A stretch of 64,000 nucleotides of DNA from Hydractinia symbiolongicarpus. Its lineage: Eukaryota > Cnidaria > Hydrozoa > Anthoathecata > Hydractiniidae. Positions 12,965 to 63,303 of this stretch are shown in pieces; positions within the stretch are counted from its first letter, which is position 1; each line of letters begins with the position of its first letter. Under the pieces are notes generated by a model. The model had not been told where the DNA came from. It searched no databases and saw nothing but the letters and a program-made list of their open reading frames with translations. The position numbers and the translations under genes were made by a program. The stretch spans positions 15,125,001-15,189,000 of the forward strand of contig NC_079875.1 in NCBI RefSeq assembly GCF_029227915.1, in the 5' to 3' direction.

Positions 12965-13014
12965 AGATTCAATGATGATACACAAACGGGTATAAAAAAG
13001 AGCAAAATTTCTGC

Positions 13015-14773
13015 ATGACATCAGCTTCAATTCCAAAGAAAGAAATAGTTGCGAAAGTGGAAGAGGCAATTAAAGATCTACCAAAAGAAGAGGCTGACAC
13101 AGTGAGAGCTAAAGTATGCCTCACGCTACAGAAATGCAAAACACCAAAGGACAATTTGCAAAAATCTGAAAGACTGTCATTGAAGAATCCAAAGAAGGAG
13201 AAAGATATGATAATCCTACCGGCAGACAAGGGGAGAACAACGGTTATCATGAATACACTTGACTACATCAACAGGTGCAACGAACACATCAACAACGGCC
13301 CTTACAAACTTCTCAAGAAAGATCCCACAGAATTCATCAAACGAGAAACGAGGAACATCTTAATGGAGTTGAAGAGAAAAGAATACATCTACGATAAGCA
13401 GTATTACCGACTGAAACCTTGTGACGGACCACCACCGCGATTTTACGGACTATCAAAAATTCATAAACGGGGAAATCCAATTCGACCAATAGTCTCCTGC
13501 ACTGGAACACCGTTATACAACCTATCAAAATTTGTTGCTTCCATCAAATTCACAGTAAGTGACCACAGCAAAAACTTAAAAGACTTTTCGGAATACATCA
13601 GAGAAATAAAGATAGCAGACGACGAATGCATGGTATCATTTGATGTCACATCACTCCACACAAATGTTCCCATAAAAGACACCTTAAACATCATTAAAGA
13701 CCTTATCGAAAACAATTCTGCATTCGGTGAAAAGACAAAGATTCCAGTACCGGTTTTTTGCGTTTGGTCGAACTTGTTCTAACCAAAACATGGTATCTGT
13801 TAAATAAGAACTTCTACACTCAAACAGACGGAGTTGCCATAGGAGGCCCTGCATCATCAGTAGTCGCAGAAATATACATGCAAGCACACGAGACAACAGC
13901 ATTAGTCACATCAGACAGACGTCCAAAGGTTTGGAAAAGATTTGTTGACGACGTATTCGCCATAATCAAAAGATCTCATCTAGAAGAGTTCCATGAACAC
14001 ATCAACGGCATTACATCGACAAATCAAATTCACTGTTGAGCTTGAACACGATGGAAGTATCGCTTTTCTGGACACTTTGGTCAAACGCAAGAATGGTTCC
14101 ATTTCAGTTTCAGTGTATCGTAAATCAACACACACTGACCAGTACCTTAACATCGAATCAAACCATCAGAAATCTTGCAAATTCGACGTGTAAGAAATGC
14201 ATTAATCGCAAATGATACAGTCATAAAGTCATCACGCAAGTAGAAAAAAAAATGAAGATAAGATGCAACGGAGACAACAAGGAAACATCAGAGGAATTTA
14301 TCGCATCAGCATTCCTACCCTTCGTACCAGGTACCAGCGAGATCCTTCGTCGAGTTTTAAGGCAACACAAGATCAAATGCATTCTTACCTCTAAAGACAC
14401 CCTAAGAAGCACTTTGTCTAAACCAAAAAACAAAATAAACCTGGAAGAACAAAGCAATGTTGTTTACAAAATCCCGTGTAAAGATTGTGATGCAGTGTAT
14501 ATAGGCGAAACAAAAAGAAAGTTTAAGCAACGAGTACAAGAACATATGCGCGCAGTGAGAAACGGAGATGTGAAGAAAAACGAAATTGCGGACCACAGCT
14601 GGAGCAGAAGTCATCAGTTTAATTGGGATGAGAAGGAAAACATTGACAGAGAATCCAGAACAACGGCCAGGAAGATTAAAGAAACCATCAACAGTGTAGA
14701 ACGTAACAAACACATAAACAGCATCTCGTATCAACTTCCTGAGATTTGGTTACCAGCCCTACAGAAGAAGTAG
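13015..14773 (+). pseudogene. Penelope-like reverse transcriptase and GIY-YIG endonuclease, frameshifted
   Basis: Fragments in order: 13015-13782 has ILPADKGRTTVIM, FYGLSKIHKRGNPIRPIVS and MVSFDVTSLHTNVPI. The frame then changes at 13758-14039 to TDGVAIGGPASSVVAEIYM and the catalytic KRFVDDVFAII. A third frame at 13993-14193 carries [21 protein letters not shown] fourth at 14252-14773 carries CKDCDAVYIGETKRKFKQR, the GIY-YIG-type core, then EHMRAVR and an ADHSW motif. At least three frame breaks (about 13750-13785, 14000-14040 and 14190-14250) make this copy inactive in autonomous form. The N-terminus is not complete, as the frame is open just before the first ATG. Retrotransposon function, acting in the nucleus, is family knowledge. 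Confidence 0.85.
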
Positions 14774-29572: not shown

Positions 29573-30055
29573 GACGTTAATTGAATTTTTTCGCCATTAA
29601 TTTTACCTGTTAAATTTTATTTATTTTATGAGATGACGCTTTGGACGAAAAGTCACCGGATTAAACCCTAGTTCAAAAAAAATATGAAAAATTTTTCCCC
29701 CTTTTTAAGCCTGAATACAGTTAACATTTTTCATGTCCTCACCAATATTTTCATGTCCTCACCAATAACTTTATACCCTTTATATTAATCCTATGGTTAA
29801 GAGTTCACATTTCCGATCAAAAATAGAAGAAAAAACTGGCGTTTAGCTGTCGCATTTCTCACATGTCACGTGACCTACCCGGGTTTTAAAGAGAACGTGC
29901 ATAAACACGAAGAAATGCGTTTTGTCGTTCAAAAGGACGCACATCTACTCATGTTACAAGCTTTAGGAAACACAAAAATACCTTGTAATTAGTTCATTGT
30001 TTATTACGCAGCTTGTACCCCGCGACACGAGTACATGTTTTTCCAAGTAAGCAAA

Positions 30056-30147
30056 CTCATTCCCAGGGAATTTTGCTTTCCTTTTTAATTTGATAGCGCG
30101 CTTCGTAATATCGGCTCAGAGGTCAAGAGACCCTGGGGACGAGGATG
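30056..30147. mobile_element. Mini-element of the CCTCG-CCCAGG family
   Basis: CTCATTCCCAGGGAATTTTG on the left and GAGACCCTGGGGACGAGGAT on the right form inverted ends around about 50 bp with no coding potential. Confidence 0.5.
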
Positions 30148-30573: not shown

Positions 30574-30645
30574 CAACCTCGTCCCCAGGTACGGAGATGT
30601 CCCGTGAGAATATTATAGGCGTAGAAAAGACCTAGGGATGAAGTT
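30574..30645. mobile_element. Mini-element of the CCTCG-CCCAGG family (72 bp)
   Basis: CAACCTCGTCCCCAGG at the left and CCTAGGGATGAAGTTG at the right are inverted relatives. The left end matches the right TIR of the RecQ-bearing element at 16 of 16 positions. Confidence 0.55.
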
Positions 30646-32479
30646 GGAGACTATTTTGTGGCTATTTTTGTTTTGCCTGACAACCTTCATCCATTGATTA
30701 TGAGTGCCAATTTTAGATGAATAACTGAATTAAAATAAATTTTGAAGAAAAAAAAACCCAGTGTGAATTTTATTCCACTTTGAGCGTTCGTTGTATGCAT
30801 ACCTTGCGATTCTATGGTCTCAAAGGACATCTAGGTTATGGGAGTCTCATATAAGTGAATTTTTATGGGAATTTGGTTGTGCTAAAGATTCATTTTTCTG
30901 GAGACTAGGTCTTTTTATGTATATCTATTTTTAAATGAAATTTATTGTACTGCAGAGAATACTCTTCTTCTCAGAGACTAAAACAAATTTTTTTTAAAAA
31001 AAAAGCAATAAAAAAACGTTTAATAAGAAGAGCTATGAAATTAACATCATTGTTCAACTTGGCGGCAATTTCTGAACAAGTGGGTTGAAACAAAGTGGCG
31101 CTATTAGAAATTAATTTGTGACTCGAGGTAGAAGCAAAAAAAGCCTTGAAAGTTGAAAAAAAGGTAAGTAGCAAAAATTGTGTATTTCGCAAGTAAAAAC
31201 ATTGTCGTAAGGAAATAAAATAAAATTATGTATAGAAAATTGCTGTGAAAAAACATTTCGTAAACAAAAGGTAAAAAAAATTCTGTAAAAAAATATTTGT
31301 CAAGAAATATATTTCTTTTTTTTTATTCCTTTAAAAGTTTGTTTGGAAAGTTAAAAAATTAATTTTAGCTGGAACTATAATATTCGCGATATATATATAT
31401 ATATTTTTTTTTTAAAAAAAAGTCTTTTCCTGAACTTAGCAAGTAATATTCCGTGAGACGGAAATGTTTTGAAATAATGCCCTAAGGGAAATGAAATTTT
31501 CAAATCACAGTAATAAAAAAGTATTAATTTTAATTAACTTGTATTATAATCCCTCTAGGTAATAAAATTGCATGATTTAATCACCTACAGAGAATTACAA
31601 TACAAAAAGAAGAATAAACTGGATGACGAGAAGATATAAAAAGTCACGAATTTTGCGTAAAAAGAATTTAATGACATTTTTGTAGACGACTAACAATCGC
31701 TGAAATAATTGGTAAAAATTAAAATGTGGAAAATACGATGTTATTTAAAAACATGGCTAAATTAATAAGGTAAGAACTAAAATCAAACAATTTTTCAATG
31801 TTTTTACAAATAAATTTTTTTTTTTGTGATGGTCTTTCATAGAGACTAAAAAAATTAAAAAAATGGAATTTCGTGATAAAGTTATTTCCTGCACATATTC
31901 CAAATAACATGATAGCACGTTAGTTGTTTTTTAGCTCAAAAATTTTAATTTCAGATTTATAACCAGTACACTGAAACAGACGAGCAACCCACTGCAACAT
32001 TTCGATGTCATACTTTAGTAAGGACGCACTTACCCTTATTTTTCTTATTTATTTATGTGTTTATGTGTTTATTTATTTGTTTGTTTGTGAATCTTAGGTC
32101 ATAGTTTTAAAAACTCCCCAGGGCTCTTTTCTCTTTCTGATAATATTGCGAGGCAAAATAGAAGAAATATCAAATAGCCCTAGGTACGAGGTTGATTTAC
32201 AAGGCATTTTGTTCAATAAAAAGCACTTTGATGCCATGATAATATTAACGTATTATCTTAGACTCGCTGATTTAATGCATGACTGGTTCTCTCGATTGTT
32301 TTTGCCAAGTTGTATTAACACCCACATTCGATTTTTTAACTCAAAAAGTTCTCCTCTTTAAATTTCCTGTTAAAAATGTTAAGTTCATTATGATAAAGAA
32401 TGTTCTAGTTATTCGGTGATTCTAAAAAGAAATGACTCGCTTTTGTTATACAATACTTAACAAAAACTTAATAATAATT

Positions 32480-35117: not shown

Positions 35118-38100
35118 CCCTGACAAAACAAGTAAATATATATCCTGACTTGGCACCTAAACCACTTAAATATTTATCTGAAGGCGGTCCCGACTGGAGA
35201 CCTAAAACAAGTAAATATATTTGAAGGCTGTCCCTACTTGGGACCTAAACAGATAAATATACATTTAAAGGCTGTCCCGACTTGGGACTTAGAAACAAGT
35301 AAATATATATTTCAAGGCTGTCCCGACTTAGGACTTAGAAAACAAGTAAATATATATTTGAAGGCTGTCCCTACTTAGGACTTACAAAACAAGTAAATAT
35401 ATATTTGAAGGCTGTCCCTACATGGGACCTAAAACACATAAATATACATTTGAAGGTTGGCCCGTGTTGGGACCTAAAACACATAAATACACATTTGAAG
35501 GTTGTTTCGACTTAGAACCTAAAACGCATAAATACATATTTGAAGGCTGTCCCTACTTGAGAAATAAAACACATAAACATATATTTGAAGGCTGTCCCTA
35601 GTTGGGACCTAAAACACATAAATATACATTTAAAAGTTGCCCAGCGTTGGGACCTATAACGCATAAATATATATTTAAAGGCCGTCCCTACTTGGGACCT
35701 AAAATGCATAAATACACATTTGAAGGCTGTCCCGACTTGGAACCTAAATCAAGTAAATATGTATATGAAAGCTATCCTGACTAGATACCTAAAAACACAA
35801 GTATACATTTAAGGGCTGTCCTGTCTTGGGACCTATAACTCATGCATATATATACTTGAAGGCTGCCCCGACTTTGGACCTAAAACAAGTAAATATATAT
35901 TTAAAGGCCGTCCCTACTTGGGACCTAAAACACATAAACATACATTTGAAGGCTGTCCCTAGTTGGCACCTAAAACACATAAACATACATTTGAAGGTTG
36001 TCCCGACTTGGGACTTAGAAAACAAGTAAATATAAATTTGAAAGCTGTCCCTACTTGGGACCTAAACCACATAAATATACATTTGAAGGCTGTCCCGACT
36101 TAGGACTTAGAAAACAAGTAAATATATATTTAAAGACTGTCCCTGGTGGGGACCTAAAACACATAAATACACATTTGAAAGCTGTTCCGACTTAGAACCT
36201 AAAACGCATAAATACATATTGGAAGGCTGTCCCTACTTGGGACCTAAAACACATAAACATACATTTGAAGGCTGTCCCGACTTAGGACTTAGAAAACAAG
36301 CAAATATATATTTGAGGGCTGTCCCTGTTGGGGACCTAAAACACATAAATATATGTATGTGAAGGCTATCCTGACTAGATATCTAAAAACACAAGTATTC
36401 ATTTGAGGGCTGTCCTGTCTTGGGACCTGTAACTCATGCATATATATTTGAAGGCTGTCCCTACTTAGGACCTAATACACATAAACATACATTTAAAGGC
36501 CGTCCCTACTTGGGACCTAAAACACATAAACATACATTTAAAGGCTGTCCCGACTTGGGACCTGAAACAAGTAAATATGTATGTGAAGGCTATCCTGACT
36601 AGATATCTAAAAACACAAGTATTCATTTGAGGGCTGTCCTGTCTTGGGACCTGTAACTCATGCATATATATTTGAAGGCTGTCCCTACTTGGGACCTAAT
36701 ACACATAAACATACATTTAAAGGCCGTCCCTACTTGGGACCTAAAACACATAAACATACATTTAAAGGCTGTCCCGACTTAGGACAAAAAACAAGTAAAT
36801 ATATATTTGAAGGCTGTCCCGACTTGGGACTTAGAAAACAAGTAAATATAAAATTAAAGGCTGTCCCTACTTGGGACCTAAAACACATAAATATACATTT
36901 GAAGGCTGTCCCGACTTGGGACTTAGAAAACAAGTAAATATATATTTGAAGGCTGTCCCTGGTGGGGACCTAAAACACATAAATATAGATTTGAAGGCTG
37001 TCCTGACTTGTGACCTGAAACAAGTAAATATGTATGTGAAGGCTATCCTGACTAGATATCTAAAAACACAAGTATACATTTGAGGGCTGTCCTGTCTTGG
37101 GACCTATAACTCATGCATATATATATTTGAAAGCTGTCCCGACTTTGGACCTAAAACAAGTAAATATATATTTAAAGGCCGTCCCTACTTGGGACCTAAA
37201 ACACATAAACATACATTTAAAGGCTGTCCCGACTTAGGACAAAAAACAAGTAAATATATATTTGAAGGCTGTCCCGACTTGGGACTTAGAAAACAAGTAA
37301 ATATAAAATTGAAGGCTGTCCCTACTTGGGACCTAAAACACATAAATATACATTTGAAGGCTGTCCCGACTTGGGACTTAGAAAACAAGTAAATATATAT
37401 TTGAAGGCTGTCCCTGGTGGGGACCTAAAACACATAAATATAGATTTGAAGGCTGTCCTGACTTGTGACCTGAAACAAGTAAATATGTATGTGAAGGCTA
37501 TCCTGACTAGATATCTAAAAACACAAGTATACATTTTAGGGTTATCCTGTCTTGGGACCTAAAAAATGTAAACATAGTTTGAAAGCTGTCCCTATTTGGG
37601 ACCTAAAACATGTAAACATATATTTGAAGGCTGTCCCGACTTTGGACCTAAAACAAGTAAATATATATTTAAAGGCCGTCCCTACTTGGGACCTAAAACA
37701 CATAAACATACATTTAAAGGCTGTCCCGACTTAGGACAAAAAACAAGTAAATATATATTTGAAGGCTGTCCCGACTTGGGACTTAGAAAACAAGTAAATA
37801 TAAAATTGAAGGCTGTCCCGACTTGGAACCTAAAACACGTAAATATACATTTGAAGGCTGTCCAAATTTTGGACCTAAAACACGTAAATATACATTTGAA
37901 AGCTGTTCCAACTGGGAACCTAAAACACATAAATATACATTTGAAGGCTGTCCCGACCTGGAACCTAAAACAAGTAAATATATATTTAAAGGCCGTCCCT
38001 ACTTGGGACCTAAAACACATAAACCTACATTTGAAGGCTGTCCCTAGTTGGAACCTAAAACACATAAATATACATTTGAAGGCTGTTCCGACTTGGAACT

Positions 38101-38200
38101 TAGAAAACAAGTAAATATATTTTTGAAGGTTGTTCCAACTTCGGACCTTAAACGCATAAATATATATTTGAAGGCTGTCCTTACTTGGGACCTAAAACAA
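35118..38200. repeat. 45-bp satellite array with higher-order structure
   Basis: About 65-70 copies of a unit made of TTGGGACCTAAAACACATAA, then ATATACATTTGAAGG, then CTGTCCCTAC. The two main variants differ in AAACACATAAA versus AAACAAGTAAA. A 224 bp block (five units) repeats at 36421 and 36645. A 455 bp block (ten units) repeats at about 36765 and 37220, nearly identical. The 45 bp length is 15 codons, so frames such as GPKTHKYTFEGCPDL stay open for up to 172 residues in several frames and on both strands. That pattern points to satellite DNA rather than a gene. Confidence 0.9.
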
Positions 38201-42225: not shown

Positions 42226-45200
42226 CAACCGTTATTTTACTTCGTTTTCCGTCCCTTTTCCATTCCTTTAATCCGTTCTTCATCATTCTACTTTGTTCTT
42301 TATTTATTTAATTCTTTTCCCATTATTTTACTCCATCATTTTATTTCGTTCTCCGTTATTTTACTTCTTTCCACATTATTTTAATTCGTCCTCCATTATT
42401 CTAATTCGTTCTTCATTATTTAATTCGATCTCCATTATTTTACTTCTTTATAAATTATTTTATTCTTTCTCCATTATTTGAATTCGTCTTCTGTTATTTT
42501 ACTGCTTTCCCCATTATTTGACTTAGTTCTCCCTTACTCCACTTCCTTCTCCATTATTTTAATTCGTTCTCCATTATTTTACTTCGTTCTCCGTTATTTT
42601 AGTTCGTTCTCCGTTATTTTAATTCGTTCTCCATTATTTTAATTCGTTCTCCATTATTTTACTTCGTTCTCCGTTATTTCAATTCGTTCTCCATTATTTT
42701 AATTCGTTCTCCATTACTTTACTTCTTTCTCCATTATTTTAATTCGTTCTCCATTATTTTTCTTCGTTCTCCGTTATTTTAGTTCGTTCTCCGTTATTTT
42801 AGTTCGTTCTCCGTTATTTTAATTCGTTCTCCGTTATTTTAATTCGTTCTCCATTATTTTAATTCGTTCCCCATTATTTTAACATCGCTCTCCGTTATTT
42901 TAACATCGCTCTCCGTTATTTTACTTCGTTTTCCGTCCCTTTTCCATTCCTTTAATCCGTTCTTCATCATTCTACTTCGTTCTTTATTATTTTAATTCTT
43001 TTCCCATTATTTTACTCCATCATTTTATTTCGTTCTCCGTTATTTTACTTCTTTCCACATTATTTTAATTCGTCCTCCATTATTCTAATTCGTTCTTCAT
43101 TATTTAATTCAATCTCCATTATTTTACTTCTTTATAAATTATTTTATTCTTTCTCCATTATTTGAATTCGTTTTCTGTTATTTTACTGCTTTCCCCATTA
43201 TTTGACTTCGTTCTCCATTACTCCACTTCCTTCCCCATTACTCCACTTCCTTCTCCATTATTTTAATTCGTTCTCCGTTATTTAGTTCGTTCTCCGTTAT
43301 TTTAATTCGTTCTCCATTATTTTAATTCGTTCTCCATTACTCCACTTCCTTCTCCATTACTTTACTTCGTTCTCCGTTATTTTAGTTCGTTCTCCATTAT
43401 TTTAGTTCGTTCTCCGTTATTTTAATTCGTCCTCCGTTATTTTAACATCGCTCTCCGTTATTTTAACATCGCTCTCCGTTATTTTAACATCGCTCTCCGT
43501 TATTTTAACATCGCTTTCCGTTATTTTAGTTCGTTCTCCGTTATTTTAATTCGTTCTCCGTTATTTTAATTCGTTCTCCATTATTTTAACATCGCTCTCC
43601 ATTATTTTAACATCGCTCTCTGTTATTTTAACATCGCTCTCCGTTATTTTACTTCGTTTTCCGTCCCTTTTCCATTCCTTTAATCCGTTCTTCATCATTC
43701 TACTTTGTTCTTTATTTATTTAATTCTTTTCCCATTATTTTACTCCATCATTTTATTTCGTTCTCCGTTATTTTACTTCTTTCCACATTATTTTAATTCG
43801 TCCTCCATTATTCTAATTCGTTCTTCATTATTTAATTCGATCTCCATTATTTTACTTCTTTATAAATTATTTTGTTCTTTCTCCATTATTTGAATTCGTT
43901 TTCTGTTATTTTACTGCTTTCCCCATTATTTGACTTCGTTCTCCCTAACTCCACTTCCTTCTCCATTATTTTAATTCGTTCTCCATTATTTTACTTCGTT
44001 CTCCGTTATTTTACTTCTTTCCACATTATTTTAATTCCTTCTCCATTATTTTAATTCGTTCTCCATTATTTTAATTCGATCTCCATTATTTTACTTCTTT
44101 ATAAATTATTTTATTCTTTCTCCATTATTTGAATTCGTTTTCTGTTATTTTACTGCTTTCCCCATTATTTGACTTCGTTCTCCCTAACTCCACTTCCTTC
44201 TCCATTATTTTAATTCGTTCTCCATTATTTTAATTCGATCTCCATTATTTTACTTCTTTATAAATTATTTTATTCTTTCTCCATTATTTGAATTCGTTTT
44301 CTGTTATTTTACTTCTTTCTCCATTATTTTACTTCTTTCTCCATTATTTTACTTATTTTTCTATTATTTCAATTCGTTCTCCATTATTTTAATTCGTTCT
44401 TCATCATTTTAATTCGTTCTCCATTATTTTAATTCGTTCTCCATTATTTTACTTCGTTCTCCGTTATTTTACTTCTTTCTCCATTATTTTACTTCTTTCT
44501 CTATTACTTTACTTCTTTCTTTATTATTTTACTTCTTTTTCCATCATTATACTTCTTTCTCAATTATTTTAATTCGTTCTCCTTTATTTTATTTCGTTCT
44601 CCATTATTATACTTCTTTAAAAATTATTTTATTCTTTCTCCATTATTTTACTTCTTTCTCCATTATTTTACTTCGTTCTCCGTTATTTTACTTCTTTCCC
44701 CATTATTTGACTTCGTTCTCCATTACTCCACTTCCATCTCCATTATTTTAATTCGTTCTCCATTATTTTACTTCGTTCTCCGTTATTTTACTTCGTTCTC
44801 CGTTATTTTACTTCGTTCTCCGTTATTTTACTTCTTTCTCCATTACTTTACTTCTTTTTCTATTACTTTACTTCTTTCTCAAATATTTTACTTCTTTCTC
44901 TATTACTTTACTTCTTTCTTTATTATTTTACTTCGTTCTCCGTTATTTTACTTCGTTCTCCGTTATTTTACTTCTTTCTCCATTACTTTACTTCTTTTTC
45001 TATTATTTTACTTCTTTCTCCATTATTTTACTTCTTTCTCCATTATTTTACTTCTTTCTCCATTATTTTACTTCTTTCTCCATTATTTTACTTATTTTTC
45101 TATTATTTCAATTCGTTCTCCATTATTTTAATTCGTTCTTCATTATTTTAATTCGTTCTCCGTTATTTTACTTCGTTCTCCGTTATTTTACTTCGTTCTC

Positions 45201-45870
45201 CGTTATTTTACTTCTTTCTCCATTACTTTACTTCTTTTTCTATTACTTTACTTCTTTCTCAATTATTTTACTTCTTTCTCTATTACTTTACTTCTTTCTT
45301 TATTATTTTACTTCGTTCTCCGTTATTTTACTTCGTTCTCCGTTATTTTACTTCTTTCTCCATTACTTTACTTCTTTTTCTATTATTTTACTTCTTTCTC
45401 AATTATTTTACTTCTTTCTCCATTATTTTACTTCTTTCTCCATTATTTTACTTATTTCTCTATCATTTTAATTCGTTCTTCATTATTTTGATTCGTTCTT
45501 CATTATTTTAATTCGTTCTTCTTTATTTTAATTCGTTTTCCATTATTTTACTTCGTTCTCCATTATTTTACTTCGTTTTTCATTATTTTAATTCGTTCTT
45601 CATTATTTTAATTCGTTCTCCATTATAATAATTCGTTCTCCATTATTTTAATTATTTCACCATTATTTTACTTCTTTCTCCGTTATTATACTTCTTTCTC
45701 CATTATTTTACTTCGCTCTCCATTATTTCACCTCTTTCTCCATTATTTTGATTTGTTTTCCATTATTTGATTTGTTTTCCATTATTTTATATAGCAATCT
45801 CCATTATTTTGATTTGTTTTCCATTATTAATTTGTTCTCCATTAATTTATATGGATCTCTATCTTTTTAC
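42226..45870. repeat. 20-bp T/C-rich minisatellite, 3.6 kb
   Basis: About 180 copies of ATTCGTTCTCCATTATTTTA with variants at the C/G of CTCCRTT and at AATTCG, ACTTCG, ACTTCT or ACATCG. A marker block around CGTTTTCCGTCCCTTTTCC occurs at 42241, 42924 and 43653. A block of several hundred bp from 42241 recurs almost unchanged 1412 bp later, so longer segments were duplicated within the array. Open frames rich in Ser, Phe, Ile and Leu are artefacts. Confidence 0.9.
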
Positions 45871-47573
45871 TTCTCTGTCTATTATTTTTCGTTCTTCTTT
45901 TTACTTACTTTGGTGTTTGGTATTATTGTTATTCGTGTCGTTCGTTGGGAATATTGTCTGTCTTGTTTTGTGTGAGGGTGGGATTGAGCAACTGTAAGTA
46001 ACGTGTTTGTTTTGTTTGTGTCGTGTAAGTGTTGTCGCAGGGTGAGAAAACGTAAATGTTACATCAGTCTAATATTTTAGCGTACGCTTGAAAATTCAGA
46101 TTTTGAAGAAAATTATAAGCAACAAAAAATCTTTAGGAACTGATTGTTTTTTGTTGTTGCTCGGGTGGCGAACTGCAAAATCCGATGACTGGCCTTCTCG
46201 TGGCGCAGTTTGTTAAGCAAAGTCAATTTCTATTTGTGGTATTTTTTTATTATTCTTTTTGTCTTATAATTACGTTTAGATATTATTGTCATTGACTTTG
46301 TAAACCAACAGTCACGGTAATACGCTACTTAACCCTATTTATACAGGGATCTTTTCGTATTTATGTCCTGGAGGAGGATAGAGTGACTTAACCCCTTCTC
46401 TTTTGCTCTGTTGGTTTTGTTTCTAATGTTCACAATTTTTGCTATGACGTCAAACAAGTGTTACGAAATACAGAAGAATTTTTCCTTGACGGCCTTCTGT
46501 AACAAGTTTGCCATGGGTGTTTCCTCAAAAAGTTGCCAATTAGAAAGTTTTTAAAATTATCAAAGATTTGCTTTGCTGAAGTTGGATTTTAGGATTTATA
46601 ATGAAAAGTGGTTTGGTGATAGATTTCTCCCTCCCAGTATAAATTGGGTTAATACACGCATCTTGCATGTCAAAATTGTCAAAATTAGGCTGAATCATAC
46701 ATATTTCCCGTATTGGGATTTTGTGCCTGTCAGCACGAAGTAGTTAAAATACTTCGCAGGGCCCAACATACATCTGATTGGGGGAAGGCATTTAGAACAC
46801 ACAGATTACTTCTTATTAAATAGACTAGTCATTAAGCATTAGAAAAACAGGCTATCCCGTCGGCAAAGTATTTACTCCTCAGATTACCCGAAAGGAAACT
46901 ATTTTTAATAAACAGAATATGAACATTATTTATAGTGCCTAGTCGTTAACCGGTGGATTCTCCACCGGCTCATCAATCAGAACAGAATAACGTAACACTT
47001 TGCATGGTTAATGAATAAAGCTGCATGCAGCCGTTCACACAAAATACGTATCATTAACCCACAAAAAAATCTATTCCTGTTATAACATTTACATATTTTC
47101 TAACGATCAGCTGTTCTGGGTCTTCTAAAGACCTGTCTAAAACATAGAAGCTAAAACCCTGAATTTGAGGACCAATAAATAAACCTGATTATTTTAACTG
47201 TAGAAATAAAAATAGATACTCTTCAAACTCGTCATTCTCACTTTACTTTTACATTAACAGGCTCAAAACCTTCACGGAGCAATCTCTAAGCAACAACAAT
47301 ACAAAAGCCTAAAACATTAAACCTCAGCTAAAATTTTGTTGCTTATATAAACGCACGCTTAAGCTTCATCTTTCCCACAAAATGCTGCTTATAAGTAGAA
47401 AGAGCGTGTAAACTTAAATCATGCGCAATAGCATATACGCATTTAATCTGGTCTACGCTAAACAATTTTTGCGACGATTTTTTTTATGAAATACTGCGAT
47501 TAATTGAAAGCTTTTGGATAAATCACTTATGCACCCGTATTTTAGACTTTGTATTTCCCGTGTCCGTAAATAG
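45871..47573. other. Non-coding stretch
   Basis: No supported gene. It contains one TGACGTCA site near 46444 and a short palindrome CCGGTGGATTCTCCACCGG near 46951. Confidence 0.4.
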
Positions 47574-50251: not shown

Positions 50252-50320
50252 CAACTTTGTCCCCAGGGATCTTTTGTTTCTGACAATTTGGGACAACGAG
50301 ATTCCTGTGGACGAGGTTAG
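50252..50320. mobile_element. Mini-element of the CCTCG-CCCAGG family (69 bp)
   Basis: CAACTTTGTCCCCAGGGATC on the left and TTCCTGTGGACGAGGTT on the right form the inverted ends. The centre folds back, as in the termini of the two larger elements to the right. Confidence 0.5.
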
Positions 50321-53795: not shown

Positions 53796-55589
53796 CAACC
53801 TCGATCCCAGGGCCTGTAGCGTTTTTTGATATGAGGATGAAACGCGTACGAGGCCCTGGTACATCAGACTTACTCAACCAATGAAATTGCGTGTGGCTTT
53901 TTTAAATTATGTTGAAAAGATAATTAATGCAGAAGTTTTTTTGCAAGCACTGCATTTTTTATCAACAACAAAAATGTCGATAAGCATTACGAAGATTTTG
54001 GTTACTTGTTTATGAAGAAAATATTTATTAATTCACGTTATTTTTGACTTCCTGGCATCGTTTACAAAGCTGTTCAAAATTTTTAAACATTGCTTTTATT
54101 TCCTTACTGATAATGAAAAATGCAGCTGACAACTCAAATGGAATAGTGCGACGAACATCCTGTCCTGCGAACTTTCGTTGGGACACAATACTTAATTTGT
54201 TTTCATATGCTAAAATGTAAAGAAAAACTTCGTACAGATGAAACTTTGTAGTGTGTAAGCTGACTAACTGGCTAGATGCTGTTGGCTTAAAGATGCACAA
54301 ACACAACAATGACAACCAATTTTTCTTACAATGACACATGTGTCAAGAGATATCTTTTAACAAACTTTTTGGACAAAATACTAGCTAAAGTATTGAAAAA
54401 TAAATGGAAATAAATAAGGGAATAAAGTATAGCTAGCTGTAATAAATAAAAATATATATACACAAGAAATCACAACTATATAACGTACTGTTTTTAGGCA
54501 ATGAGAAAGAAGATATCACAACACATAAGGTTTATGGTGGGTGTGTTAAAGTACGTAGGTTTCATGCTGAAGCAAACTTAAAACGGTTTAGTGAAATTTT
54601 CGGATGTATTGGAACCTCAAATATCGCAATTATGCAAACTAATACTGTCGTAAATGTGAAACAAAATTAAAGATTTTCCGCCAGTTTTTTTAAATAAGCT
54701 TTCAGAAAAATAACATTGTAAAGAGCGTTATATCATCACCAAAAACTCATTAATGTCATTTTGTTTTAAACACCTAGTGCTGATATTATGTCCAGTATAA
54801 TATAATCTTGCCAATGCTTCTTGCCCTCATCGACCAGACCGTCCAAATTGCTGCATATATATACATTCAATGGTATTCAATGGTACTTGGTGGACTTATA
54901 TGGTAGATTTGTTTAATAATGGTGCATAAACTCCTATGACAAGAGCAGAGGTTGCTATAATAAACCAAACGTCAGATCTTCCTTTGCAACTTCAAGAAGA
55001 ATTTGGTTTTACATGGTCTTTGTTTGTGGTGTGTAAAGCTGCACAATTCACTTGATCTTTAATAATTGCATTTGGTAGCTACCTAACAGTTCAAAAATTA
55101 AACTCATATGCTTTGATAAAAGTCCAATGACGTCCTTGTCCTCACACTATTGACTCTAAACATTTGACTTCTTATAGTCAGGAAAATTTCGGCGCTCTAA
55201 AGATCTCTGAATTTTCTCCAACATTGCTAAGAAGTGGTGTCCATCCTTTCATTTCTTATTTTTCAGCTGGTGTAAATTATTCTATAATATTTATAAGTAC
55301 CGTAGTTTTTACTACATGTATAATACACCACAAAATGACTAGAAAGTCACTAAAGGTTGTATCTATTCTGGAATTGTATGGTGTATAGCTAGGTACCTCT
55401 ACCTAAAAAACCCAGCAAAACACTTTACAAATTTACGCCACTAAAACACAATCTTTGATTGAAACGTCACGCATACATTAATTCTCTCCACATGCTTAAT
55501 TTTGGACGAATTTTAGGTCTGTTGTACCAGGGCATCGTACGCGTTTCATTCTCATATCAAAAACGATACAGGCCCTGGGATCGAGGTTG
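53796..55589. mobile_element. 1.8-kb TIR transposon, 8-bp target duplication ATATAAAT
   Basis: Both ends begin CAACCTCGATCCCAGGGCCT and stay similar for about 75 bp in inverted orientation. They are flanked by ATATAAAT (53787-53794 and 55590-55597), with one extra T inside the left copy. Within each TIR, CCCAGGGCCT pairs with the inner AGGCCCTGG or a near match, so the terminus itself folds into a hairpin. An 8-bp duplication fits hAT or P-like transposases. No transposase was recognised, so this copy is probably non-autonomous. It belongs to the same family as the RecQ-bearing element 300 bp to the right. Confidence 0.8.
54028..54339 (-). CDS. Hypothetical 103-aa ORF inside the 1.8-kb transposon
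   Basis: ATG-initiated open frame containing KFAGQDVRRTIPFELSAAFF and KAMFKNFEQLCKRCQEVKN. The C-terminal half is charged with a Cys pair; the N-terminal half is hydrophobic with Cys. No domain was recognised. It may be an exon remnant of the element's own gene, or chance. Confidence 0.25.
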   Translation of the reverse strand: MCHCKKNWLSLLCLCIFKPTASSQLVSLHTTKFHLYEVFLYILAYENKLSIVSQRKFAGQDVRRTIPFELSAAFFIISKEIKAMFKNFEQLCKRCQEVKNNVN

Positions 55590-56025
55590 ATATAAATCTT
55601 ATAAATGACATGCTAACAATTCCTATTTGATAAGCACTGTGATATTTTTAAGACAATAGTAAAAGCCTGTGATGTAACTAGCTACAAAAAATATGGTTTC
55701 TTTCTCTTTTTACTGCCAACTGTTCATGATAAGTGTACCCACAAATTGAAGCAACTAATAACAAGGTAACATCTCGAGCATTCATAATATACACTCTTAT
55801 GTTAGTACTGAGTATCCTTCCCTTAAATAATTGTAAGATCAATATACCGCACCAGTTTAAAAATGTAAATACAAAGAAAAAGGTGACTAATTCAAGCTCG
55901 ACCCCAGCACCTTTTACCGTGGCGTCGAAAAGGCGCTGGCACAGGCTGGTCACGTGGGCATCAAATGAACCAGATTCTGGTTCATTTTTAATTTATGCAA
56001 ATTCTGCATATTTACGATTTTGGCG

Positions 56026-57815
56026 ATGGGCTGGGAAGATGTGGTACGTGTTTTCAAGCGGCTGAATAATTTTTTGAAAAGTATGAAAAGTTGCCCTCGT
56101 TTATTTTGAAACCAAAACAAGTTCAATGTTTCGAGTATTTAGGAGAAGGACACCACGTTATAGCTGTTTTGCCTACTGGGTTTGGTAAATCGTTAATTTA
56201 TCAACTTTTACCCGACTTTGTTCCAGAACGAAAGGCAGGCAATATTGTACTTGTTGTCTCTCCTTTAACATCAATTATTCAAGATCAGTTAGTAAATTTA
56301 AGTAAAGTAGGCATTGAATGTGGTATCTTACAACTCGAAGACCAAGCTAATAGCCAGAGATACGAACCCTTGTTTGAGGAAGATTTGAATGATGCATCAA
56401 ATTCTGTTTTTAAAATTTCAAAAAGCATTGTTGCAGGCAAATGTAAAATTTTATTTGCACATCCAGAGTCTCTGTTATCAGATCAGGGAAGGAAGATATT
56501 ACGATCAAAAATTTATGAGGAAAATGTTGTGGCTTGTGTGATAGACGAGGCGCATTGTGTGGAATTATGGTGAGTATAGCCAGCTAGCTAGTTTTCTTTG
56601 TATAACATAACATAACAAAAATCTACATACATAGCTATTATAAAAATAATATGCCTTAAATATAGCAACTAAATATATATAAACAAACTAATATATATTA
56701 TATATCCATTTGAAAAAGTTTCACAAACAAAATATATGTATATGTATAGCTATAATAATTGAATAATATAAATCTATCACCATAATACAGTTAAGCAAAA
56801 AAATTGATGAATTACTGTATGTTATATCTAGGGGTGAAGAATTTCGTACAGAATTTCAAAACTTATCAGTTTTTCAAGCATTCTTCCCTCACAGTATCAT
56901 GTTAGCTTTGACTGCAACTGCTTCACCAACGAAATTACGTAATTTAAAAAAAGCTTTGAAAATAGAAAATTGCAAAGTGGTTACTGCAAATCCAAATCGT
57001 AAAAGCATTTTTTTAAAAAAGAAATAAGAATGAGTAATTGCAAAGGTTTAGCAGGATATGAGGATATATTACTACCTATCGCAACAGAGTTAAAGCACAA
57101 AAAACAAAACTGCCCTATGACAATTATTTATTTAAAGTTAAAATATTGTGCCTATGCATACAGATTGTTTGAAAGAATTTTGGGTGAGGATCAATATGTT
57201 GATCATAAAAAACATCCATCTTCTCGACTTTTTAATCAGTATCACTCACCACAAACAAAGTTGATGAAAACAACTTTTTTAGAAGAAATAAAACGTGAAA
57301 ACTCTAGAATAAGAATAATTTTTGCCACAGCACTTGGTATGGGTGTCAACACACCATTTGTCATAAAGATTATACATATTTCTCCCCCGTCCAACATTGA
57401 ATCGTACATTCAAGAAATTGGACGGGCAGCCGGACGTGGTCAACCAGCAGAAGCAATATTGTATTACAATAATTCAGACATTTCAACGAATAAAAAAAAT
57501 GTTGACCAGCATATGAAAGAATTTTGTGACTTGACAACTTGTTTAAGAAGTTTTTTACAAAATTATTTTGGCTTCAAACACACAAAACAAGAATTTTGTT
57601 GTTGCAACTGTGAAATTCTATCCTTGGAAAGTAGAAAAGCAAAAGAAATCAAGAAACCTTCACCCTTTATTGACAAAGGTTTTCTGCCTGACTTGGAATT
57701 ATTGATCAATAAATTAAACACAAGAGCTGATCCATTGTTTGCTGATATATGCACTGCTAACACATATGCTAAAATAATAGTTCAAACTCGGAAACGTTTA
57801 ATCCACATGTTCTGA
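56026..57815 (+). pseudogene. RecQ-like ATP-dependent DNA helicase, two exons, frameshifted
   Basis: A probable ATG at 56026 (MGWEDVVRVFKRLNN) leads, after a one-base shift in a T-run near 56070, into LPSFILKPKQVQCFEYLGEG. Walker A is LPTGFGKSLIYQ, motif Ia VVSPLTSIIQDQ and motif II VIDEAHCVELW. Exon 1 ends at 56569 before GTGAGT. The 262-nt intron ends CTAG at 56831, and exon 2 restores the Trp codon. Motif III is ALTATAS. A second shift in an A-run near 57012-57020 enters 57030-57815 with motif V IIFATALGMGVNT, motif VI QEIGRAAGRGQP (usual RecQ form GRAGRDG) and a Cys cluster, FCCCNCE, matching the RecQ zinc-binding region. The frame stops at 57815. No HRDC domain is visible. RecQ helicases unwind 3'-5' in DNA repair; here the gene lies inside a transposon. 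Confidence 0.8.
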
Positions 57816-57910
57816 ATATTTTGTGATGTAAGGATTTTTCCTTTCCACTTTTTAAAAAAATTCTGGTCAAGTGATGTGCTGATGTTTCTTCAGCACAAAT
57901 TCGACACACT

Positions 57911-58049
57911 TGTAGTGTCGGAGACTGCATATATACAGACTGTTATATATTTGTATATGTAAGGCACGGAGTGAAGTGTACATAGCCTCTTTGTATTTAA
58001 CTATATTACGAGACACACGTGTTATTTCTTGTCCTGCTGGTATCTCTCA
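57911..58049 (+). repeat. 5' LTR of gypsy element
   Basis: 139 bp, TGTAGTGTCGG to TATCTCTCA, identical to the 3' LTR. It contains TATATAC and TATATATT tracts that could act as core promoter. Confidence 0.95.
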
Positions 58050-58051
58050 TT

Positions 58052-58069
58052 TGGCGACGAGGATTGGAT
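58052..58069 (+). other. Primer binding site of gypsy element
   Basis: TGGCGACGAGGATTGGAT starts two bases after the 5' LTR. TGG matches the CCA end of a tRNA. Which tRNA primes cannot be settled here. Confidence 0.75.
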
Positions 58070-58310
58070 TTTATACAAAGAAAATTTACCACAACATTTC
58101 AGAAACATTGTCAGATAAGTACAAATACGTTTTCAACCTTGTACTGAATTCTTGTACCGTTTGGAAGAAAACTGTTACGCTCAAGCTGCGTCGCTCGCCA
58201 GGAGCCACCTCCGCCATTTTTTTTGTACTACGGCTACGACTTTACGTAGGACATCACCACGCTCAACCAAATTAGGCTTCAAGTGTTGTGTGCGTAAAAC
58301 ATAAACAAAT

Positions 58311-61300
58311 ATGGCGCATGCCTTAGCGAATCTTCGCTCGTGTGTGCAAGAATTTCAACTACAGGATCACGAAGAAACTACTTCAAACATACACAAGCGT
58401 TGGTGTATGTGGGTAGAAAATTTGGAATATTGTTTTACTTTTGAAGGACTAGATACAGTACCGACAGAAGATGGGGCTGTCTCACCAGAAGTTAAGAAAA
58501 AAGCAGCGCTCCTAGCCTTAGGCGGCCATCAGTTGCGGGAGCTCTACAACACCCTCGAAGATACAGGGACGACATACACTGAGGCAAAGAGGAAGATCGA
58601 AGAGCATTTCAAAGGTTCAAAGAATCTCACTGCAGAAAGATACAAATTTTTCTGCATGAGACCACTCTCAACTCAAGAAACTCATGATCAATGGGTTACT
58701 CGTTTAAAGACTAAAGCAAGAGACTGTGAATTTGATCAAATGAACATGAAGGAAGCAATTAAGTTGGTGGTTACTCTACACACACCGATTCCTAAATTGC
58801 AAACAGCTGTCATAAGAGATGATATGACTTTCGAGCAAATGATGAAACTGGCACAATCTATGGAGCTGGCTCACCGAGAAGTTAGCTACATGAAGGCAAA
58901 CACGATGGAACCTCATAATACTCATTCGGCGGAGAATATCGACCTTAACAAATTGGCACATTATGCTGATCAGCAAGGTATGCGGCTGGCACCAAAGAAG
59001 CCTGCCAACAAATCAACAAAAATGGTTGAGTTGTGTCGTTATTGTGGAGAAACGACACCACACAAAGGAAGTTGCAAAGCAAGAGGTGCCACATGTAATA
59101 ACTGTGGCAAGAAAAATCATTTTTCACGAGTTTGTGAAAGCAAGAAAGTCAACTTGCTTATTGCACAGCCAGGACCACAAGGAGGGTCATTTTACGAATA
59201 TGGGGCAACAGAAATTAAACTTGATGCAGTGAAGGAGAAGCTACGAACCACCTGTGAAAACTATCCATCCACTGTAATCGAGGTAAACATCGACAACACC
59301 AGGATCACTATGCAAGTAGATTCGGGGGCAGATGCAAATGTAATTCCATGGAATGTTTATGAAGAACACTTAAAACACATTCCTCTTCGATCAACCAAGG
59401 CAAAACTGCAACCATACAACTCAGTTACATTACCAATCAAGGGGGCGTTTGAGGCACAAATCACTGCCAACAACAACAACAATGTCCAGGCTACCTTTTA
59501 TGTAACAGAGGGAGCTGCTGCACAAAGTTTAATGGGCAAATACACAGCTTTCGATTTAGATGTATTGGCTATCAATGTAAATCACCTTGACAACCAACAA
59601 ACTGTAAAACAGGTACACACCAAAGTACAACATCTAGATTATAGAGAAATGGCCAAACATCTAACTCCCATAGAGACATCGGTTGAACTTGAAAAGCAGC
59701 TTGAAGTCACAACACACAATCAAGAACAGAAGGTTGATGCAATTATGCACCACTTTGATGTAGTATTCAATGGCATTGGGAAGCATAAATATCGTCAGGT
59801 TCACCTTCATATTGATGAAACAGTTTGCCCAGTTGTGCAAGCGCAACGTCGTATTCCGTTTGCACACCGTGAAAAGTTGGAGACTCTGTTACAGGAGCTG
59901 GAAAAGGAAGATGTCATTGAACGGGTAGAGGGACCAACTGACTGGGTCTCCAACATTGTCATAACACCAAAAGCCGATCCAACACAAATTAGAATGAGTA
60001 TTGACATGACTACCGCCAATAAAGCAATTCAACGCACGCGTCATGTCATACCAACGATTGAGGAACTTAGATACAGAATGAATGGGGCATGCCATTTTTC
60101 TAAGCTGGACATGAACCATGGTTATAATCAATTTGAAATTGATGACTCATCTCGATACGTCACAGTGTTTTACACTCATAAAGGCCTACGTCAATTCAAG
60201 CGACTCAACTTTGGAACCAATTCAGCTGCAGAAGTATTCCATGACGAAATGACTAACACTTTAGCTGACATCCAACAGGCTGCTAACATCTATGATGACA
60301 TCATTGTATTTGGTCGTACTCAACGAGAACATGATTTAACATTAATCCAGGTTCTACAACGACTAGCAGACTGTGGATTAACATTAGGACGATCCAAATG
60401 TCAACTTAATGTGACATCTGTTAAATTTTTTGGTTTAATATTCTCGGCTAGTGGTATATCACCGGATCCTGCCAAGGTGACTGCGCTTGATGCCATGACA
60501 GCACCTTCAAATGCAACGGAAGTGAGATCCTTTCTAGGCATGACCAATTTCAGCTGTACCTTTATTCCTGGTTATGCCAACATTACTGCACCTTTACGAC
60601 AACTAACATGTAAAGGCCAAGTTTTTGAGTGGACAGATGAGTGCAACACTGCATACAACAAGCTCAAGGAAGTTTTGAAGCAACACACAACAATGGCTTA
60701 TTTTGATCCCTGTAAGGACACCAAGCTTATTGTAGACGGATCGAAGAAGGATGGTCTTGCTTCCATCCTTGCCCAGAGAGATCCTCAAGACAACATCTTT
60801 AAGCCTATTCGTTATGACAGTAGAGCTACTACACCTACCGAAAGGAATTACTCACAACTAGAGATTGAAAGCCTTGCTCTCGTTTTTGGAACAATGAAGA
60901 ACCACATATATCTGTATGGGCTTCCCCAATATACTGCCAGTACAGATCATCAACCTTTACTAGCCTTGTATAAGCAAACGAAGCAGGACATGCCAGCACG
61001 TATTCTGAGGCATAAACTAAAACTACAAGGCTACAATTTCCAGCTAATACACGAACCTGGTTCAGTCAACCCATCTGATTATCTTTCTCGCCATCCACAG
61101 CAAAAGCAGGCTCCATCCCAACAAGAAAGTGAATTTCCTTTATACTTAGTCACCAATGCTGTCATGAGAAGTGATTCAGCTATTACCACTGATATGATTG
61201 TGCAAGCAACGTTGGAAGATCCCACGCTTCAATCTCTTGCCATTGCTGTACGACAAGGATACATTGACAAGAGGCAGAAAGAGCTACAACCCTACAAAGC

Positions 61301-62609
61301 CATCTTCAAAGAAATCAGTGTGGACGATTCAGGTATTATATTGCGAGGAGACAGGATCATTATACCGTCACAGCTACAACAGAAAACTGTACAGCTAGCG
61401 CACGAAGGCCATCAAGGCATAGTGAAATGCAAACAACTCATCAGAAGCACTATGTGGTTTCCAGGAATAGATGCTATGGTGGAGGCATCTGTAGCATTTT
61501 GCAACCCGTGTCAAGCTGCAACGGATACGAAACAACAAGAACCAATGAAAGCTTCTTCACTACCAGAACAACCCTGGATTAAACTTAACACTGACCTATT
61601 TGGGCCAATCGAGGGTGGTAATGAGTACCTACTAGTTGTACAAGACATGTATTCTCGTTACCCTGCTGTAGAGGTCGTTCACGCCACATCTGCACAATCA
61701 GTACTGCCAGCCATGGATCGCATTTTTGCACTTTTTGGAATTCCGGAATATCTAGGGTCAGATAACGGCCCGCCTTACAGTAGCACAACATTTGCAAGCT
61801 ATGCCAAATACATGGGATTCAAGCATGGTCCGAAAATACCCCTAGCACCATGGACGAATGGCATGGTAGAGAACTTTATGCACAATCTCAAGAAGCTCTT
61901 GCAAACGTCTTTGCAGGAACACCTGAACTGGAGACACGAATTACAGCGCTTACTGCGGGCATACCGGGGCACTCCACATACAGTGACGGGTCGCAGTCCA
62001 GCAGAGGTTCTATTCAATGGCAGACAATACAGAACCCGGTTGCCTGCTGTACGCCGCGCTGAAAGGCCAAAGTTCCACACCGAAATATCAGCCAAGCAGG
62101 GGGCAAGACAAACCTCGATGAAAAAATATGCTGACCGAAAAGCATATGTTGCAGAGAGCGAGCTACAAGTGGGTGATTGGGTTATGTATCGCCAAAAGCA
62201 ACAAAAGAAGAGTGATACGCCCTACTGTGGAACCCCACATCGCATTATCAAAAAGGTTGGTGGCAGAGTCACTGCAGAGTGGGATAGACATGTCATCACA
62301 CGGCATAGCACCTTTTTCAAGAAAATTCCCAATCACCCAGGGAAAGAAAGGAGTCAGAAACTATTCACGAAATCAACATCTGTAGCAGACTGCGATATAC
62401 CACCGTTAACTTGTGAAAGAGACGCGGACAAAGACGCAGTAACCAGTGAAGATGAAAGTATGCAAACCGTGGAGTATGAAGTAGAGGAAGATTGGAATAA
62501 TCTCGATCAAGAAATTGCGATGGAACAAGTTAGAAGATCTACACGTGAACGAATGAAGCCGTCAAAGCTAACAGAATACGAAGTAGATCTCCCAGAGTCT
62601 TTGAAATAA
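58311..62609 (+). CDS. Gag-Pol polyprotein of Ty3/gypsy retrotransposon (1432 aa)
   Basis: Single uninterrupted ORF, ATG at 58311. The Gag part ends in two zinc knuckles: a variant C242-C245-H251-C255 and a canonical C261-C264-H269-C274. The retropepsin motif DSGAD begins at residue 337. Reverse transcriptase follows, with the YDD catalytic box at 661-663. RNase H begins around 800, with Asp 809 in the VDGS motif. Integrase has an HHCC zinc region (H1031, H1034, C1064, C1067) and the catalytic triad D1095, D1151, E1187, which is DD35E spacing. An acidic C-terminus follows without a recognisable chromodomain. Gag and Pol are fused with no frameshift or stop between them. All catalytic residues checked are present, so this copy may be active. 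It encodes the enzymes for reverse transcription in cytoplasmic particles and for nuclear integration. Confidence 0.95.
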   Translation: MAHALANLRSCVQEFQLQDHEETTSNIHKRWCMWVENLEYCFTFEGLDTVPTEDGAVSPEVKKKAALLALGGHQLRELYNTLEDTGTTYTEAKRKIEEHFKGSKNLTAERYKFFCMRPLSTQETHDQWVTRLKTKARDCEFDQMNMKEAIKLVVTLHTPIPKLQTAVIRDDMTFEQMMKLAQSMELAHREVSYMKANTMEPHNTHSAENIDLNKLAHYADQQGMRLAPKKPANKSTKMVELCRYCGETTPHKGSCKARGATCNNCGKKNHFSRVCESKKVNLLIAQPGPQGGSFYEYGATEIKLDAVKEKLRTTCENYPSTVIEVNIDNTRITMQVDSGADANVIPWNVYEEHLKHIPLRSTKAKLQPYNSVTLPIKGAFEAQITANNNNNVQATFYVTEGAAAQSLMGKYTAFDLDVLAINVNHLDNQQTVKQVHTKVQHLDYREMAKHLTPIETSVELEKQLEVTTHNQEQKVDAIMHHFDVVFNGIGKHKYRQVHLHIDETVCPVVQAQRRIPFAHREKLETLLQELEKEDVIERVEGPTDWVSNIVITPKADPTQIRMSIDMTTANKAIQRTRHVIPTIEELRYRMNGACHFSKLDMNHGYNQFEIDDSSRYVTVFYTHKGLRQFKRLNFGTNSAAEVFHDEMTNTLADIQQAANIYDDIIVFGRTQREHDLTLIQVLQRLADCGLTLGRSKCQLNVTSVKFFGLIFSASGISPDPAKVTALDAMTAPSNATEVRSFLGMTNFSCTFIPGYANITAPLRQLTCKGQVFEWTDECNTAYNKLKEVLKQHTTMAYFDPCKDTKLIVDGSKKDGLASILAQRDPQDNIFKPIRYDSRATTPTERNYSQLEIESLALVFGTMKNHIYLYGLPQYTASTDHQPLLALYKQTKQDMPARILRHKLKLQGYNFQLIHEPGSVNPSDYLSRHPQQKQAPSQQESEFPLYLVTNAVMRSDSAITTDMIVQATLEDPTLQSLAIAVRQGYIDKRQKELQPYKAIFKEISVDDSGIILRGDRIIIPSQLQQKTVQLAHEGHQGIVKCKQLIRSTMWFPGIDAMVEASVAFCNPCQAATDTKQQEPMKASSLPEQPWIKLNTDLFGPIEGGNEYLLVVQDMYSRYPAVEVVHATSAQSVLPAMDRIFALFGIPEYLGSDNGPPYSSTTFASYAKYMGFKHGPKIPLAPWTNGMVENFMHNLKKLLQTSLQEHLNWRHELQRLLRAYRGTPHTVTGRSPAEVLFNGRQYRTRLPAVRRAERPKFHTEISAKQGARQTSMKKYADRKAYVAESELQVGDWVMYRQKQQKKSDTPYCGTPHRIIKKVGGRVTAEWDRHVITRHSTFFKKIPNHPGKERSQKLFTKSTSVADCDIPPLTCERDADKDAVTSEDESMQTVEYEVEEDWNNLDQEIAMEQVRRSTRERMKPSKLTEYEVDLPESLK

Positions 62610-62621
62610 AAAGGGGAGTAA
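62607..62621 (+). other. Polypurine tract of gypsy element
   Basis: A/G-rich AAAAAGGGGAGTAA directly before the 3' LTR, where plus-strand DNA synthesis is primed. It overlaps the end of the Gag-Pol stop codon. Confidence 0.8.
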
Positions 62622-62760
62622 TGTAGTGTCGGAGACTGCATATATACAGACTGTTATATATTTGTATATGTAAGGCACGGAGTGAAGTGTACATAGCCTC
62701 TTTGTATTTAACTATATTACGAGACACACGTGTTATTTCTTGTCCTGCTGGTATCTCTCA
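62622..62760 (+). repeat. 3' LTR of gypsy element
   Basis: 139 bp, identical on inspection to 57911-58049, and followed by the ACACT duplication. Confidence 0.95.
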
Positions 62761-62765
62761 ACACT

Positions 62766-63160
62766 CCTTTGCCACCTTTATAAACTTTTTTAGGCGTAGA
62801 TGGCAACATCTTTTGCAACGAGAGATTAACAAGAAGAGCACCTGCAACACTTCACTTCTCTCTCGAGCCATATTTATGAATGCATTACCTAGCTGGCTAG
62901 CAACATCACCGACTACTTTTTAACAAAAAATATCGTATATTTGAAAGAAATTCTTACTTTAGCTAAGACATCTTAAAAAAAAGGTGGAGGAAATGAGATT
63001 AAAAAGGAAAAATAATGCTTTTTAAGGATTTAAAACCACCAACAACAACGACGCCACATCTTCCGGTGCCATATTTGTTTATGTATCACTTTTAGGATTT
63101 TTGCTGACGCCAGCTAAAAGTGTTGCATAATTAGGGTAACGCCGTGGGCCAATCAGATGC
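62766..63160 (+). other. Tail of the RecQ-bearing transposon downstream of the gypsy insertion
   Basis: If the gypsy insertion is ignored, an open frame crosses the old junction and continues as FATFINFFRRRWQHLLQREI to SWLATSPTTF before a stop near 62923. It may be a C-terminal exon of the element's gene or chance. The rest is AT-rich. Confidence 0.3.
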
Positions 63161-63265
63161 GATACGGTGACCAGCCTGGTCCAGGGCTATTTCGCTAGAA
63201 CTATCAGAAAGCGCAGCGCCGTTGAGAAGCAAATAGTCCTGGGGACGAGGTTGTGACTAATTCTC

Positions 63266-63303
63266 TGCTGGGGAAAACATGCAGCAGCATGTTTTCCCCA
63301 GCA
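63266..63303. repeat. Perfect hairpin, 17-bp arms, next to the transposon end
   Basis: TGCTGGGGAAAACATGC and its exact complement surround a 4-base loop. It begins five bases after the right target duplication of the RecQ-bearing element. Confidence 0.8.

Follow-up and report, generated by a model that had tools for sequence, protein, structure and literature searches.

The DNA analyzed here is a 64,000-nucleotide window of Hydractinia symbiolongicarpus (contig C1, 15125001-15189000), and the whole 480.9-Mb assembly of this hydroid was searched for relatives of one element within it. This element, at positions 55893-63253, is a decayed transposon with terminal inverted repeats (TIRs), and a RecQ-like helicase gene is part of it. 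It is very probably a non-autonomous copy, with an internal deletion, of a DNA transposon of the AcademH type, whose longer relatives carry two genes. The element looks like a helicase-only transposon because most of its transposase gene has been lost. In what follows, labels beginning with P denote database proteins, those beginning with L denote loci of the Hydractinia genome, and C1, C8, C11 and C13 are contigs. Coordinates are collected in Table 1.

Traces of a transposase gene

A preliminary description, made from the window sequence, saw no transposase in this element. Nevertheless, two stretches of a zf-AD exon from the transposase gene of the family survive on the minus strand, and both resemble protein P0203. 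This protein aligns with its own locus on C8, and a copy of the window subfamily lies there. At the point where two alignment blocks overlap, the C8 copy has 3004 bp, and L115 has 1097 bp, that are missing from the window copy. Because the window copy and L115 both keep exons of the transposase gene, they are deletion products.

The two exon remnants in the window are separated by a gypsy element, which is thus inserted in the residual zf-AD exon. Its long terminal repeats (LTRs) are identical, 139 bp each, and a 5-bp duplication, ACACT, lies at 57906-57910 and 62761-62765, so the proposal of a nested gypsy element holds. With the gypsy element and one ACACT removed, the parent element is 2506 bp, in agreement with an earlier estimate of about 2.5 kb.

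Two-gene relatives

At L118, L119 and L121, an additional gene lies on the opposite strand and faces the helicase. Six fragments were submitted to Pfam, and the only matches above cut-off were zf-AD (1.9e-9 in L118 and 3.5e-11 in L115) and DUF6589 (5.2e-9 in L118); no hAT, MULE or Kolobok model appeared up to E 1. A 606-residue open reading frame (ORF) from L121 retrieved 124 proteins, and DUF6589 is present in 119 of the 120 listed. Longer proteins of Hydractinia (P0122 and P0203), Clytia (P0202) and Dendronephthya (P0233-P0235) combine zf-AD with DUF6589. Three other DUF6589 proteins, P0125, P0138 and P0146, are 59% identical to the L121 query and belong to clusters of 292, 529 and 236 members. 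The family carries a transposase-like gene of its own, which encodes zf-AD and DUF6589 on the strand opposite to the helicase.

The predicted fold of the zf-AD and DUF6589 protein is nearest to DDE transposases, which are RNase-H-like, with middling Z scores; hAT Hermes and RAG1 are the closest structures. A plain Foldseek search of the PDB with this fold returned nothing under E 0.001. In P0122, residues D328, D507 and E756 or E762 are conserved and are candidate catalytic residues. The element family suggests a transposase role for DUF6589. The literature searched makes no mention of DUF6589, either by itself or together with the word transposase.

Three long elements contain both genes: C8 14769042-14775052 (6011 bp, duplication 8/9, with about 0.5 kb extra within the helicase region), C11 25367140-25373228 (6089 bp, duplication 9/9) and C13 10220424-10226492 (6069 bp, duplication 9/9). 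In these relatives of about 6.0-6.1 kb, the helicase and the zf-AD/DUF6589 gene are convergent. The pairing was also counted across the genome, from 85 helicase rows picked by hand out of the P0001 listing (further exons of the same loci being omitted), 74 transposase rows (58 of 325 candidates scored) and 40 rows of element ends. A helicase lies within 4 kb at 38 of the 58 transposase loci listed, always in convergent orientation (38/38), and about 0.1 such pairs are expected by chance; some of the loci counted are near-identical repeats of one another. No partner is listed for 20 of the 58 transposase loci or for 41 of the 79 helicase loci.

Element ends and copies

The inverted ends at 55893 and 63253 had been read as those of a TIR transposon, and they are real: TIRs are present in the window element and its relatives, and copies elsewhere have the same boundaries. 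The first 133 bp of the element recur in at least 40 genomic places with 86-100% identity (40 of 78 candidates scored), and 35 of the 40 scored begin at base 1. When the window element is compared with 53 loci, homology extends from 55890-55894 to 63253 in L115 (3599 bp), L116 (2607 bp) and L122 (2588 bp), and likewise in L091, L112-L114 and L100 (626-755 bp). The 9-bp flanks of all these copies match at 8/9 or 9/9. Exceptions are L099, which begins at 55886, and a single locus, L089/L096/L117, which begins only at 56025.

A second helicase subfamily was identified, in which an exact end adjoins the helicase in all nine loci (L102-L110). In L103 and L106 the 12 bp ahead of the end are identical, so these two may represent one insertion that was duplicated. 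Thirty-three loci, L090-L114 and L115-L122, some of which overlap, were scanned for ends with at most 2 mismatches; 27 had at least one end, compared with 0.023 per 10 kb in a shuffled control; at this threshold, no end was found in L090, L096, L098, L099, L111 and L117. A genome search with P0001 gave 163 exon matches (84 of 469 candidates scored), of which a part was listed. Among the matches listed, a helicase lies within 4 kb of 21 of the 40 scored 5' ends of the window type, a transposase is near 13, and one or the other is near 25.

Target-site duplications

The duplication flanking the window element had been described as an exact 8 bp, and hAT or P elements were named as its class. With the ends taken as CAA...TTG, however, the element is flanked on each side by TGACTAATT, a match of 9/9, as opposed to 2/8 in the 8-bp register. 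The duplication is therefore 9 bp.

The same comparison was made for 20 elements with both ends, whose end pairs were chosen by the author and among which L091, L112 and L114 have flanks in common and do not count as independent. The best fit is 9 bp in 16 of the 20 (one of them, at window position 50252, matches only 5/9) and 10 bp in the other four (10/10, 10/10, 8/10 and 7/10). The mean match is 0.26 at 8 bp, which is the chance level, and 0.79 at 9 bp. These registers rule out the 8-bp hAT/P class for the window element. The duplications of the family vary in sequence and are 9 or 10 bp long, unlike the TTAA target that would be expected of KolobokH.

The helicase gene

The window element does contain a spliced RecQ-like helicase gene, as originally proposed. 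Its coding pieces match the Pfam models DEAD (3e-14) and Helicase_C (2.8e-7) above cut-off, its top PDB matches are RecQ-family helicases, and an intron is present. The RecQ_Zn_bind model is matched at 8.4e-4 with 20.5 bits, under the cut-off of 25, and appears among the domains listed for P0004, P0010, P0011 and other relatives; none of the helicase relatives P0001-P0100 has a listing for RQC or HRDC. The reading frame is disrupted at two sites.

A close relative, P0001, is a 509-residue protein from another locus in H. symbiolongicarpus and is 92% identical across 98% of the query. Other Hydractinia homologues are about 42-58% identical. More distant relatives occur in the octocoral Dendronephthya (45-54%; rows P0002, P0011, P0013, P0015 and P0018) and in molluscs (about 30-40%). 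In a quick tree of 39 rows, a set without the host RECQ1, BLM and WRN, the window copy groups with P0001 (Shimodaira-Hasegawa-like approximate likelihood-ratio test, SH-aLRT, 100). A group of 25 rows, mainly animal and metagenome, is separate from bacterial RecQ and from a fish/amphioxus group (SH-aLRT 91), and P0093 (Mytilus) and P0095, which have long branches, fall outside it. Searches of viral contigs yielded distant RecQ alone (5 loci, 25-27% identical), as did prokaryotic genomes (64 loci, 23-31% over long matches, and 3 short ones at 40-42%), and neither provided any gene context.

Protein P0008 (LOC130654739; window 54936-57024) is a gene model from this stretch and matches 55838-55984 and 56142-56570 at 98-100%. 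This model fuses parts of two different transposons and is probably an annotation artefact.

Comparison with known transposons

The hAT elements duplicate 8 bp of target, Kolobok elements have TTAA as their target, and we know of no helicase in either hAT or MuDR elements. The hydroid elements differ from hAT (Hermes) in that the 8-bp register fails.

AcademH, in the Academ superfamily, is a helicase-bearing DNA transposon of animals and fungi, according to the title of the work cited for it (Kojima 2020, Mob DNA 11:15; in PMC10045372). A passage of the citing paper gives AcademH target duplications of 9 or 10 bp and links them to its helicase. A RecQ helicase in Academ is recorded in a passage of PMC3627910 that cites Kapitonov et al., and AcademH and KolobokH helicases in fungi appear in a passage of PMC10799480. 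The account of KolobokH in part of PMC9587614 describes a RecQ helicase with a DDD/E transposase, in which the helicase is downstream of the transposase domain, and which is there limited to fungi. For MuDR, duplications of 4-10 bp are given in a portion of PMC10045372, and a portion of PMC3627910 attributes 9-bp duplications to some elements assigned to it.

The hydroid family resembles AcademH in the superfamily-2 RecQ-type helicase of the window element and its relatives, in the 9- or 10-bp duplications (20 elements and the three long ones) and in having TIRs, a comparison that concerns their presence, since published AcademH end sequences lie outside it. It differs in that the window copy is without most of the transposase gene. 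The family shares with KolobokH, as the latter is described in part of its source, a RecQ helicase that accompanies a DDD/E transposase, whereas the hydroid genes are convergent and the duplications are 9 or 10 bp. With MuDR it shares duplications of about 9 bp, at least for the elements mentioned in the passage cited above, although no MULE model was matched up to E 1 in the six fragments submitted. On the features compared (helicase, duplications and TIRs), the family is AcademH-like, the standard being the published description of AcademH rather than an Academ transposase reference sequence. A literature search for Hydractinia together with RecQ found no relevant report.

Table 1. Features of the window element and of a second element beside it (positions in the window)
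Feature	Position	Strand	Remarks
Second element, same end type, CAACCTCGATCCCAGGG at both ends	53796..55589	no strand	Duplication ATATAAATt/c, 8/9
RecQ helicase remnant within second element	54695..55056	-	E 2e-11
Left target-site duplication, TGACTAATT, 9 bp	55884..55892	no strand	
Left TIR, CAAGCTCGACCCCAGC	55893..55908	+	Other copies start at same place
RecQ-like helicase, exon 1	56026..56569	+	Start codon via comparison with P0001; frame slip near 56071
Intron, GT...AG	56570..56831	+	P0001 and P0008 gene models splice across
RecQ-like helicase, exon 2, as far as deletion scar	56832..57783	+	Frame slip near 57010
Deletion scar (overlap of two alignment blocks)	57776..57783	no strand	
Transposase gene remnant, inner zf-AD exon	57787..57909	-	87% identical to P0203; Pfam zf-AD on L115 copy
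Nested gypsy LTR element	57911..62760	+	LTRs 57911-58049 and 62622-62760
Transposase gene remnant, start of zf-AD exon (MLPSTPKKVYKGGK...)	62766..62812	-	95% identical to P0203
Right TIR, CAACCTCGTCCCCAGG, read on minus strand	63238..63253	-	
Right target-site duplication, TGACTAATT	63254..63262	no strand	

Neighboring elements

The second element lies about 300 bp upstream of the window element. RecQ matches in the window are confined to these two elements (11 helicase queries, E <=0.001). Very short elements with like ends and 9-bp flanks occur at 30574-30646 (8/9), 30052-30147 (7/9) and 50252-50319 (5/9). A genome-wide pattern search for such two-ended elements gave 67 matches (33 forward and 34 reverse, with palindromic places counted twice), versus 0 in a reversed control. 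A perfect 17-bp hairpin (63266-63303) is located immediately outside the right target duplication.

Elsewhere in the window, Pfam identifies a DDE_1 transposase on the minus strand at 5802-6479, which we take to be pogo/Tigger-like, with a further piece at 7011-7424. The ORFs at 12979-14773 presumably derive from a Penelope-type reverse transcriptase, judging by their look; the single ORF of this region that was sent to Pfam (12979-13782) had no match. At 36611-38191 and 44413-45975, long open frames of repetitive sequence run in several phases, a pattern that tandem repeats produce.

A possible mechanism and its alternatives

The paired genes, the type of ends, target duplications of 9 or 10 bp and numerous copies are observed; the mechanism itself is a proposal. 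The longer relatives are about 6.0-6.1 kb with ends of the type CAACCTCG..CCCAGG. One strand encodes the superfamily-2, RecQ-like helicase, which has some 500 residues and is split into at least two exons, and the other has the transposase-like gene facing it, with an N-terminal zf-AD followed by DUF6589 and its predicted RNase-H-like DDE fold. The zf-AD protein may bind or bridge the element ends, and the DDE core may excise the element and join it to target cuts staggered by 9 or 10 bp. The helicase might open or remodel DNA at the ends or the target, or aid resolution of the products. In the window copy, a deletion took away the helicase tail together with most of the transposase gene, and the gypsy element entered the remainder of the zinc-finger exon. 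If the copy moved again once it had been deleted, proteins from other copies would have been required. A broader proposal, whose chances appear about even, is that DUF6589 (PF20231) is the DDE core of RecQ-bearing transposons, is joined to zf-AD in cnidarians, and has a convergent RecQ as its obligate partner, transposition with a 9- or 10-bp stagger requiring this helicase.

The preliminary description left open whether the helicase is a mobility factor or cargo. RecQ helicases are ordinarily host repair enzymes, so perhaps a host gene was picked up and is carried without being used in transposition. Consistent with this idea, L120 (2806 bp, duplication 10/10) has a helicase and no match to P0122 at E 0.01. 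However, L120 may be one more deletion copy, and the convergent pairing recurs in diverged subfamilies. This recurrence, together with the octocoral and mollusc relatives of the helicase, suggests an old gene built into the element. Since most of the transposase loci listed have a helicase beside them in a single, constant arrangement, a role in the element's own mobility appears to fit better, and cargo is improbable. The same L120, and the initial reading of the window copy, could point instead to a distinct lineage in which the helicase itself drives movement without a transposase. The transposase exons kept in the window copy and L115 largely refute this for the window copy, and to our knowledge no helicase carries out strand transfer; such a lineage is very improbable.

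Several short elements with similar ends lie in the window, and these might by chance have bracketed a decayed host RecQ pseudogene. This explanation is refuted by the copies that share both boundaries, where homology stops at the two ends, and the 40 scored 5' ends, the exact 9-bp duplication, the 21 ends near a helicase, the exact ends beside the helicase in the second subfamily and the RecQ remnant of the neighboring element argue against it as well; we give it almost no weight. The element might, alternatively, belong to a superfamily other than Academ, whether KolobokH-like, MuDR-like or unnamed. The predicted core is closest to hAT Hermes and RAG1, and the sources that were cited above, as far as their passages go, place a RecQ helicase in KolobokH (PMC9587614) and 9-bp duplications in some MuDR-assigned elements (PMC3627910). 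Against this, no hAT, MULE or Kolobok model was found in the six fragments, the TTAA target of Kolobok is absent, KolobokH is limited to fungi in the passage describing it (PMC9587614), and a helicase with 9- or 10-bp duplications is the combination stated for AcademH (PMC10045372, in part). Membership of another superfamily is thus unlikely, and an AcademH-type element is preferred.

Implications

Helicase-bearing transposons are already known as AcademH, and the window copy is probably another example. What appeared to be a helicase-only transposon is explained as the deletion product of an element with a helicase and a transposase. This is a well-supported instance, from an animal, of a DNA transposon with an integral RecQ helicase, and a single genome contains several of its long relatives with both genes. 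The hydroid families offer a setting in which to test why such an element carries a RecQ helicase of its own.
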